A model generated the notes under the pieces. It was not told where the DNA came from, searched no databases, and saw nothing but the letters and a program-made list of their open reading frames with translations. Below are positions 19,705 to 21,087 of a stretch of 64,000 nucleotides of DNA, in pieces. This DNA comes from Pelagibius marinus (GTDB taxonomy: Bacteria; Pseudomonadota; Alphaproteobacteria; Kiloniellales; Kiloniellaceae), in assembly GCF_014925385.1 (NCBI RefSeq), contig NZ_JACSDK010000001.1, positions 744,001 to 808,000 on the forward strand, given 5' to 3'. Each line of letters opens with the position of its first letter. The stretch's first letter is position 1. The translations under genes were made by a program, and so were the position numbers.

Positions 19705-19790
19705 GCCCCTGTGGCGGAATTGGTAGACGCGACAGACTCAAAATTTGTTTCCCTTTGGGAGTGGGGGTTCGAGTCCCTCCAGGGGCACCA
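19705..19790 (+). tRNA. tRNA-Leu (anticodon CAA), CCA encoded
   Basis: The acceptor arm GCCCCTG (19705-19711) pairs with CAGGGGC (19780-19786), followed by discriminator A and an encoded CCA. The D arm GCGGAATTGGTAGACGC is standard for class II tRNA-Leu. The anticodon loop is CTCAAAA, giving anticodon CAA for codon UUG, with a long variable arm (TTTCCCTTTGGGAG) and T arm GGGGG-TTCGAGT-CCCTC. The anticodon stem contains a G-T pair (ACAGA with TTTGT), and the 3' half appears to have been supplied by an integrated element (see the neighbouring insertion). Confidence 0.95.
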
Positions 19791-19892
19791 CATGTTGCGC
19801 CGCAGCGCACCATGCTACCGCATCTTCCTTCCTACGCCCGCGCTCGGCGTGCCTATGCCGTGCCTAGCGGAGACATAGACGAGACATAAATC

Positions 19893-19917
19893 CGCGACAG
19901 AATCGGAGTCTGTCGCG
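19893..19917. repeat. 9-bp inverted repeat near the left end of the tRNA-Leu element
   Basis: CGCGACAGA (19893-19901) and TCTGTCGCG (19909-19917) are perfect inverted copies separated by seven bases. The left arm overlaps the decamer AAATCCGCGA (19888-19897), which recurs in the same orientation at 20968-20977 close to the right end. The position, about 100 bp inside the left junction, would suit a recombinase or excisionase binding site. Confidence 0.5.
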
Positions 19918-19918
19918 T

Positions 19919-19992
19919 GTACTTCCGTTGTACACAGCCCGCCGTGCTCAGTTGTACTCCGTATGGTACTATGTGGTGGAAGGTACTTGTAC
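19919..19992. repeat. Cluster of six GTAC motifs
   Basis: GTAC occurs at 19919, 19930, 19954, 19966, 19983 and 19989, three times as TTGTAC. Six copies in 74 bp is far above chance. Clustered short repeats near an element end often act as arm-type binding sites for an integrase or its directionality factor, but that role is inferred. Confidence 0.45.
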
Positions 19993-20013
19993 TTTGACAA
20001 CTGGGTAGGACAT

Positions 20014-20055
20014 ACAAACCGCATTATTAGCGGGGAGAGTAGCCATGCGGTTTGT
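20014..20055 (+). repeat. 10-bp perfect inverted repeat upstream of the CxxC mini-ORF
   Basis: ACAAACCGCA (20014-20023) and TGCGGTTTGT (20046-20055) are exact inverted copies around a 22-base spacer. It ends 23 bp before the ATG at 20079, so it could be an operator or an mRNA hairpin controlling that ORF. Confidence 0.5.
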
Positions 20056-20078
20056 CTCCCCTTTAATGAAAAACTACT

Positions 20079-20294
20079 ATGGAACCATGTTACTCATGTG
20101 GGCGACCATATGATGATAGTTTTGCTGACTGGACTATCTGTCGTCCTTGTAAACAGCAGCAAATGGCAGAATACCATGGCGAGGAAGTGTATATGGACGC
20201 ACTTGGTATCTGCTGGACACAAGAAGAACTAGAAGAAGCCGGTGGTCGTAACGAAGTCGATCACCTCGTCGCAGAATCCCGTTTCCAGGGATAG
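20079..20294 (+). CDS. Hypothetical 71-residue CxxC protein in the tRNA-Leu element
   Basis: I do not recognise this protein. It starts MEPCYSCGRPYDD and has a second pair of Cys in ICRPC, giving a C-x2-C...C-x2-C pattern spaced like a small zinc ribbon, followed by an acidic helix-forming tail (TQEELEEAGGRNEVDHL). The ribosome binding site is weak. Small zinc-ribbon proteins are common in phages and mobile elements, but no function can be given. An overlapping frame from 19963 lacks such internal structure and is less credible. Confidence 0.45.
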   Translation: MEPCYSCGRPYDDSFADWTICRPCKQQQMAEYHGEEVYMDALGICWTQEELEEAGGRNEVDHLVAESRFQG

Positions 20295-20389
20295 CTCCCA
20301 AATCCTACTCAGTTGTCAGAATGCACCCTTGCAATCCCTGCGTTCATTTCCCATCTTTCGGTAGAGTTTCAAGGACAGCCGAAGCGTGT

Positions 20390-20474
20390 GGGGGCCACCA
20401 GGTGGCTGTTTAAAAACCCGAAAACCCCCATGCTGGTCTTAAGCGCGGTTTCGGCTCATCAAGAGACCCCGCGC
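20390..20474 (+). ncRNA. Structured leader upstream of the 40-codon ORF
   Basis: Two stem-loops can be drawn in the 105 bases ahead of the mini-ORF. The first pairs GCCAC with GTGGC (20394-20406) inside an outer GGGG/CCCC clamp (20390-20393 with 20425-20429). The second pairs GCGCGG (20443-20448) with CCGCGC (20469-20474) and ends just before the AGGAG ribosome binding site. It could be a cis-regulatory leader or part of a small structured RNA ending at the terminator near 20657. Confidence 0.35.
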
Positions 20475-20494
20475 CTAGATAGAGGAGATTGCCC

Positions 20495-20617
20495 ATGTCG
20501 GTGATCCTCGCTATCGAAGCCAGCCAGCCGTGCGGGACGACCTACCGCCTGGCCATCGGGTGCTTTTTGCCCCCGTCACTGGTTTCGGTGGTCGCCGCTC
20601 TCTCGCGGTTGCTGTAG
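20495..20617 (+). CDS. Putative 40-residue small protein in the tRNA-Leu element
   Basis: The ORF begins at ATG 20495 with an excellent AGGAG at 20483-20487 (spacing 7) and ends with TAG at 20615-20617. The product starts MSVILAIEAS and has a hydrophobic C-terminal half (IGCFLPPSLVSVVAALSRLL) that could be one membrane helix, with two Cys. A strong intrinsic terminator begins six bases after the stop, so the ORF has all the parts of a complete transcription unit. No family is recognised; it might be a toxin-like small membrane peptide, but that is speculation. Confidence 0.5.
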   Translation: MSVILAIEASQPCGTTYRLAIGCFLPPSLVSVVAALSRLL

Positions 20618-20622
20618 TACCG

Positions 20623-20657
20623 AGAAGGGCACCTTGGAGACAGGGTGCCCTTTTCTT
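20623..20657 (+). terminator. Intrinsic terminator after the 40-codon ORF
   Basis: AAGGGCACC (20625-20633) pairs perfectly with GGTGCCCTT (20644-20652) around a 10-base loop and is followed by TTCTTC, giving a T-rich tail. It also sits 8 bp from the stop codon (20665) of a possible minus-strand ORF, so it may serve convergent transcripts. Confidence 0.7.
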
Positions 20658-20664
20658 CACCGGG

Positions 20665-20880
20665 CTACCCAATCAAAATCTTGAAAAGCCACAATAAAAC
20701 CTCTATTATTACTGACCAAATCACCCAGTCAGCAATGGAGGTTATCTTGCGCTTCAGAAACCCCGTGAAATACCTGACAAGAAATCTTGCTGGTCGGCTA
20801 CTGAATACTTTGCGCGCAAGGTGCTTTGCGATGCTTGGCACTGTCCGGGCTACCGCCCGGACAGTGCCAAGCCTTACCAC
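20665..20880 (-). CDS. Possible 71-residue basic/membrane peptide in the tRNA-Leu element
   Basis: The minus-strand frame starts at GTG 20880 (another GTG lies at codon 14) and ends at TAG 20665. The product has a basic N-terminal half (HLARKVFSSRPARFLVRYF) and a hydrophobic tail (WVIWSVIIEVLLWLFKILIG) that could be a single membrane helix. The ribosome binding site is poor, and codons 3-16 lie inside an 18-bp palindrome, so this may be chance. Its stop faces the terminator shared with the plus-strand mini-ORF, which gives some support. Confidence 0.28.
   Translation of the reverse strand: MVRLGTVRAVARTVPSIAKHLARKVFSSRPARFLVRYFTGFLKRKITSIADWVIWSVIIEVLLWLFKILIG
20833..20872. repeat. 18-bp perfect palindrome with 4-bp loop
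   Basis: GCTTGGCACTGTCCGGGC (20833-20850) and its exact reverse complement (20855-20872) flank TACC. This is the strongest hairpin in the element. No T-run follows on either side, so an operator, recombination site or processed RNA structure is as likely as a terminator. Confidence 0.7.
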
Positions 20881-21029
20881 ATTTCCGATTACTTTTCAAC
20901 GTGTTTAATACTTACAGGCGAGCCTCTTTTACCTGCGGCTGAACATACCTGCGCCTCGGTACGCCCCAAATCCGCGAGACAATAGAGAGACAAGCCCACC
21001 TAAGTCATTGAAATATAACGGTTCGAAAA

Positions 21030-21087
21030 AGACTCAAAATCTGTTTCCCGCAAGGGAGTGCCTGTTCGAGTCAGGCCAGGGGCACCA
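21030..21087 (+). pseudogene. Displaced 3' half of the original tRNA-Leu gene
   Basis: From AGACTCAAAAT the sequence continues with TCTGT, a variable arm TTCCCGCAAGGGAG, a perfect T arm GCCTG-TTCGAGT-CAGGC, acceptor strand CAGGGGC, A and CCA. There is no 5' half: the preceding bases cannot pair with the acceptor. TCTGT pairs perfectly with the ACAGA of the intact gene's 5' half at 19733, better than the TTTGT now there, so this is very likely the chromosomal 3' end displaced by integration. Confidence 0.85.

Follow-up and report, generated by a model that had tools for sequence, protein, structure and literature searches.

Introduction

Anticodon-centred attachment sites are ordinary among described islands. 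By the count in the Islander report, 2083 of 3919 islands use one (PMC4383910), which agrees with the original prediction for the present locus that tyrosine recombinases are known to use the anticodon loop. Among mycobacteriophages, Boilgate is described with a 43-bp core that contains five mismatches and is flanked by putative arm-type sites, and the attachment site of Omega is given as tRNA-Leu-CAA (PMC10865867). CIMEs are reviewed as decay products of an ICE or IME that move by accretion (PMC5704250). It is reported that a jumbo phage can carry islands at the tmRNA gene that have an integrase but no transfer genes (PMC12595487).

Here we describe a 1.3-kb element of Pelagibius marinus that encodes no recognised recombinase. 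In our judgement it is slightly likelier than not that a tyrosine integrase acting in trans integrated this element into tRNA-Leu(CAA) at its anticodon loop. The window is the whole stretch of 64,000 nucleotides that was analysed; the host genome comprises 5.44 Mb and the locus lies inside a 1.04-Mb contig.

The tRNA-Leu(CAA) gene and its displaced 3' half

The only tRNA gene reported by ARAGORN in the window is an intact tRNA-Leu(CAA) on the forward strand (19705-19790), a hybrid of a host 5' part and an element-borne 3' half that constitutes the predicted attL. An 11-base block of its anticodon arm, AGACTCAAAAT, covers the anticodon loop and adjoining stem bases (19734-19744, forward strand). 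As originally noticed, this core recurs in the same orientation 1.3 kb downstream (21030-21040), where it continues as a displaced tRNA 3' half to position 21087 (21030-21087, forward strand; the predicted attR side). Over 58 bp the half in use shares 81% identity with the displaced one. Read from the sequence, the T-arm stems of the two halves differ on both sides and pairing is possible in each.

The displaced half is identical (58/58) to the corresponding part of the native tRNA-Leu(CAA) of four same-genus genomes (G001, G004, G005 and G006) and is 98% identical in the other three (G002, G003 and G007). When the 5' part in the window was joined to the displaced half, the resulting 87-base gene matched four of the seven same-genus genomes at 87/87 and the remaining three with one mismatch; the first 40 nt of the intact gene are identical in all seven. 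Because the joined gene matches the native gene of the relatives in this way, the displaced half belongs to the host, and the insert brought the half in use. On this comparison of sequences the 3' half now in use is foreign. Outside the Pelagibius marinus genome, its best identity in the class sample (385 genomes) was 90%, and its T-arm side is matched at 33/33 in two genomes of the same order (G025 and G032). Searches with the tRNA halves did not find a second tRNA-Leu(CAA) in the Pelagibius marinus genome, for which the tRNA listing holds 49 matches and gives no anticodons.

The same site in related genomes

An empty site, with a single tRNA-Leu half, was found in five of the seven same-genus genomes (G001, G002, G003, G004 and G007). 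The region upstream of the tRNA is common to all seven, and the upstream flanks of the four relatives with an identical half align at about 72-84% identity. Downstream, similarity past the tRNA was seen in six (G001, G002, G003, G006, G007 and, on a second contig, G005) and was absent from the 1.5 kb compared for G004. The relatives searched did not carry the insert DNA, with or without a duplicated tRNA-Leu, and a right-hand tRNA part is missing from all five empty sites. The hybrid tRNA and the empty sites thus uphold that part of the original prediction which proposed a site-specific insertion in the anticodon loop by an element without an integrase. The insertion is probably young, since the displaced half, presumably free of selection, is still identical to that of four relatives; a young insertion would have left little time for a large deletion, although one may have occurred.

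The family sample comprised 23 genomes, 22 of them with a match to the tRNA half (none in G008), and an additional tRNA half was present in four: Pelagibius marinus, G005, G006 and G011. The site is an insertion hot spot. In G005 a 10-kb island (L021:4651-14811) occupies the same tRNA-Leu, and a 401-aa P4-type integrase with an Arm-DNA-bind_3 domain adjoins its right end. A DUF927 protein is also encoded, as is a protein of 1364 aa whose N-terminus is LmuA-like; the island is a possible defence island. A further tRNA half starts another G005 contig, which also has the common downstream region, and this arrangement suggests a tandem insertion at tRNA-Leu. The G006 insert measures about 39 kb; next to the tRNA lies an ORF of 442 aa whose match to PF00589 falls below the cut-off. 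The G011 insert at the same tRNA-Leu is 2.1 kb long (L025:2321-4587) and holds a single gene, for a 583-aa adenylate/guanylate cyclase-TPR protein. The contig that carries it has no PF00589 match, so a small integrase-less state is not unique to the window, in so far as the G011 assembly, fragmented into 860 contigs, represents the site.

Repeats at the ends of the insert and the search for an integrase

Near each end of the insert lies a pair of 6-mers with a period of 11, GAGACA-N5-GAGACA, at 19870-19886 and 20976-20992 (both forward strand). The pattern occurs nowhere else in the 5.44-Mb genome; its two copies have the same orientation, against about 0.3 occurrences expected from base composition. 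Shuffling produced a tandem 6-mer common to both 250-bp ends in 1 of 4000 trials, and 65 of 4000 pairs of host blocks shared one. We read the GAGACA pairs as predicted arm-type integrase sites, and their presence at both ends supports the earlier view that the 1.3-kb element has complete ends. The G005 island has GGTAAGCA pairs at both of its ends with the same 11-nt period and a different arm sequence. End comparison revealed no shared arm repeat in the G006 and G011 inserts, so the G005 island is the single positive control for this layout.

Other repeats accompany the predicted arm sites. A 16-nt repeat, AAATCCGCGACAGAAT, adjoins the left sites (19888-19903, forward strand), and its right copy (20968-20983, forward strand; 88% identity) overlaps the right sites. 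A 17-nt segment in inverted orientation (19906-19922, reverse strand) shares 16 of 17 bases with the part of the native tRNA that lies between its D arm and its anticodon. It lies partly within a 9-bp hairpin (19893-19917), and as high a score was obtained in 1 of 500 shuffles. Among IMG/VR records, the end of one phage contig (L039:20-110) is dense in GAGACA repeats, several of them spaced 11-12 nt apart. This end may be an attP that has arm sites of a similar kind; the record itself has no PF00589 match.

The insert had been described as devoid of a recombinase. Indeed, a six-frame search of the Pelagibius marinus genome in which stops were read through gave eight PF00589 matches, and none of them falls in the window. 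Neither this search nor comparison of five insert ORFs with Pfam and PHROG recognised an integrase fragment in the insert. Five of the eight integrases of the genome were run against Pfam, and one (L034) has an Arm-DNA-bind_3 domain. Both CTCAAAAT and tandem GAGACA are absent from all eight integrase loci (about 3.5 kb each). The combined arm and core pattern occurs in 1 of 61 order genomes, Pelagibius marinus itself. An integrase with matching arms was not found in the Pelagibius marinus genome, the other 60 order genomes, genome_contigs or IMG/VR. Two matches to the pattern were considered as helpers and taken as unrelated: a Cloacimonadota contig from genome_contigs in which ARAGORN reports no tRNA, and an IMG/VR record without a PF00589 match.

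Composition and protein-coding content of the insert

The insert DNA between the end of the tRNA gene and the right core (19791-21029) spans 1239 bp and, as had been noted, is richer in AT than its surroundings (52% GC vs 68% for the window). None of the other 384 genomes in the class sample matched it, and no second copy was found in the Pelagibius marinus genome or the order genomes, where the other 57 genomes with matches matched the tRNA half only, plus the cassette described below in G035. The insert is thus single-copy and was found nowhere else, so that any repeated movement as a unit would be hypothetical. A search of phage records with the insert and the tRNA halves gave two matches, both only of tRNA size, and plasmid records searched with the insert alone gave none.

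At E<=0.001 neither Pfam nor PHROG matched any of the five insert ORFs tested, and no transfer gene was recognised among them at this threshold; an oriT of a novel kind may nevertheless be present. No candidate homologue was obtained for the reverse-strand ORF at 20665-20880. A hairpin at 20833-20872, with a perfect stem of 18 bp and a loop of 4 bases, has no T run after it; it may serve in replication, transfer or regulation.

The original prediction credited the insert with only tiny ORFs, repeats and a terminator. The repeats and the terminator are present, but two of the ORFs, both intact and conserved, are more than noise: a 71-aa reading frame with 33 homologues and a 40-codon frame within a conserved RNA. 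The 71-aa product (20079-20294, forward strand) is zinc-ribbon-like. It shares 55-82% identity with its homologues, and four cysteines, arranged as two CxxC pairs, are invariant in the family. Searches of Pfam, PHROGs and NCBIfam returned only weak matches (best E 0.05; none at E<=0.001). Its structure model is confident (mean pLDDT 89.8) and had no match at E<=0.001 in the PDB or among viral models. Two relatives lie on IMG/VR phage contigs. Phage records gave two weak matches (E 0.5-0.7), and in genome_contigs all 19 candidate stretches lacked a relative.

A structured RNA/peptide cassette

Downstream of this gene lies a conserved structured RNA/peptide cassette (20376-20660, forward strand; ends approximate, taken from the alignment). 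It contains the 40-codon ORF (20495-20617, forward strand) and is closed by a terminator-like stem-loop with a T-rich end (20622-20655, forward strand). Six sequences were aligned: the window, G035, two copies in G548, the Martelella plasmid pMM259 and an IMG/VR contig; copies in the other records are at L027:3045-3290, L046:2935-3165, L047:2930-3180, L061 and L063. All five of the other aligned copies are on phage, plasmid or recombinase-bearing DNA. The G035 copy has phage terminase genes nearby, the two G548 copies lie 1.1 kb from a tyrosine integrase and 1.7 kb from a large serine recombinase, respectively, pMM259 is a conjugative plasmid, and the IMG/VR contig (L047) has a resolvase. The Martelella copy was found first as a weak protein match among plasmid records (E 0.7; 42% identity) and was accepted because its leader and terminator align as well.

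Both sides were changed in 26 of 78 predicted pairs, compared with 12.5 in shuffles (0 of 500 reached 26). Slid structures gave 6-13 two-sided changes, a control that favours the predicted structure because it was derived from the same alignment. Within the ORF the gaps are 3, 6 and 6 nt long and all preserve the frame, and the amino-acid score was 1.32 in its own frame vs -0.63 to 0.70 in the five other readings. Of the copies scanned against Rfam (window, G035, both G548 copies and L047; Martelella was left out), 0 of 5 reached a gathering score; the closest match was ctRNA_p42d over the terminator, far below the cut-off. A published study reportedly deals with trans-encoded sRNAs of the Rhizobiales.

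The cassette DNA had no match in phage or plasmid records and the 40-aa peptide none in phage records. Pelagibius marinus included each time, the peptide occurs in 1 of the 385 genomes searched for the class, 2 of the 61 for the order and 3 of the 398 for the phylum; the third match at phylum level is weak. A peptide of 83% identity is also encoded on a 1.8-kb JGI contig.

Discussion

Integration in trans draws its sequence part from the hybrid tRNA, the displaced half, the empty site, the two repeat pairs and the lack of a PF00589 match. Weighing against it are the single occurrence of the insert, the failure of the searches to turn up an integrase with matching arms, and a positive control limited to the G005 island. 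We propose that a helper integrase, predicted to be of the P4-like kind with an Arm-DNA-bind_3 domain, would bind the GAGACA repeats near both ends. Strand exchange within AGACTCAAAAT would then have joined the tRNA 3' half of the element to the host 5' half, and the rebuilt hybrid tRNA would stay functional. A circular form of the element may arise, and a helper phage or satellite may provide both the integrase and passage between cells. The cargo, with its zinc-ribbon-like protein and RNA/peptide cassette, may be of benefit to host or helper.

The original prediction left two origins side by side, a deletion remnant and a miniature element mobilised in trans. We give the latter slightly better than an even chance. 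The former, to which we assign a substantial chance that falls short of even, holds that a full phage, satellite or island with its own integrase entered the site and soon lost its interior, integrase included, while both att ends stayed. There are precedents: the CIME review traces its elements to such decay of an ICE or IME (PMC5704250), and Dehalococcoides is reported to have 15 ssrA islands that lack integration modules (PMC3146451). Such an origin would also suit a 1.3-kb unit of which no other copy was found in the order genomes or class sample, and the two relatives of the 71-aa protein on IMG/VR phage contigs. It is opposed by the insert itself, in which no integrase fragment was recognised and both arm pairs and conserved cargo were retained, and by the unchanged displaced half, which suggests that little time has elapsed. 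Whether it was integrated in trans or left by deletion, the element would be open to mobilisation by an integrase that recognises the GAGACA arms and the AGACTCAAAAT core.

Entry without any integrase, by homologous recombination of the tRNA-Leu with incoming DNA that ended in a related 3' half, is improbable. The two halves are 81% identical over 58 bp and so offer some homology, but the shared stretch is short and arm-like repeats lie on both sides of the core. Furthermore, host sequence gives way to foreign sequence within the 11-bp core of the anticodon loop, where integrases commonly cross over (PMC4383910). An old tRNA duplication or an assembly artefact is scarcely credible, since the locus is interior to a 1.04-Mb contig, the 3' half alone is duplicated, the predicted empty site equals the gene of four relatives and the cargo has independent conserved relatives.

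A wider version of the preferred reading, integration in trans, can be offered, although we regard it as rather doubtful. The element would be a minimal integrase parasite of about 1.3 kb, made up of att sites with both arm pairs, a half that restores the tRNA and a mobile RNA/peptide cassette. It would move with a borrowed phage or satellite integrase, as the tyrosine-integrase counterpart of a MITE, and its cassette would be the first described member of a structured RNA with a 40-codon ORF inside that phages, plasmids and islands carry.

Several other kinds of element were considered and rejected. Phage satellites of the PICI and P4 type have their own integrase and packaging or capsid-remodelling genes, and no such gene was matched in the insert at E<=0.001. 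MITEs have terminal inverted repeats, and the ends of this element are direct repeats of the tRNA core. A group I intron in tRNA-Leu splits the gene and carries an intron fold; here the upstream tRNA is intact and intron families are absent from the Rfam list at E<=5. In tRNA-dependent lysogeny the host tRNA is left unrestored and the element encodes a whole tRNA, whereas here the tRNA is rebuilt at attL and the window has no other tRNA.

The Islander design requires an integrase gene (PMC4383910) and so misses elements reduced to att sites; integrase-based island finders would overlook such an insert. The combination of a hybrid tRNA, a displaced half and period-11 arm pairs offers a search signature for hidden elements that borrow their machinery. 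Such an element is able to swap half of a tRNA gene for a divergent version. This case also exposed the RNA/peptide cassette, for which the scanned copies (five of the six) had no Rfam family.

Several described systems resemble the element in part. As in Islander islands, the tDNA is restored at one end and a displaced 3' fragment lies in the same orientation at the other, but those islands must have an integrase gene and the window element has none (PMC4383910). Boilgate, which uses tRNA-Lys, and Omega likewise rebuild the tRNA at attL with a phage-borne 3' half; unlike the present element they are phages that carry an integrase gene (PMC10865867). MITEs and CALINs share the missing enzyme, supplied from elsewhere, although theirs are transposases or integron integrases and the one predicted here is a phage-type tRNA integrase (PMC11389934). 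The microcin H47 island of E. coli is described as excising and integrating without encoding a site-specific recombinase (PMC3191183, PMC5426353). As it is reported, it is the nearest experimental precedent we met for an island that moves without a recombinase of its own (PMC3191183). It differs in its 13 kb and its extensive imperfect direct repeats, and the summaries of these reports name no tRNA site and identify no recombination function (PMC3191183, PMC5426353). Carriage by a jumbo phage, as reported for tmRNA islands, is by analogy a possible route between cells for the window element.

Closest in place is the G005 10-kb island, which has the same site, arm layout and 11-nt period and differs in its arm sequence and in its integrase, DUF927 protein and LmuA-like protein. 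The titles and abstract openings of the open-access literature did not reveal a 1.3-kb integrase-less tRNA element. In line with the original remark that a 1.3-kb cargo with complete ends is unusual, the element stands out for its size, for having no integrase and for its conserved cargo; its anticodon-loop site is an ordinary one. With CIMEs the element shares the lack of recognised integration and transfer genes and the retention of attL and attR, here predicted, at a tRNA gene. It departs from them in that neither a parental ICE or IME nor a tandem partner was found, in its 1.3-kb size, in its explicit arm-like repeats and in its apparently recent insertion (PMC5704250). The best reading of the element is that of a CIME-like mini-island, flanked by att sites and dependent on an integrase, a class assigned by features and not by descent from an ICE or IME.
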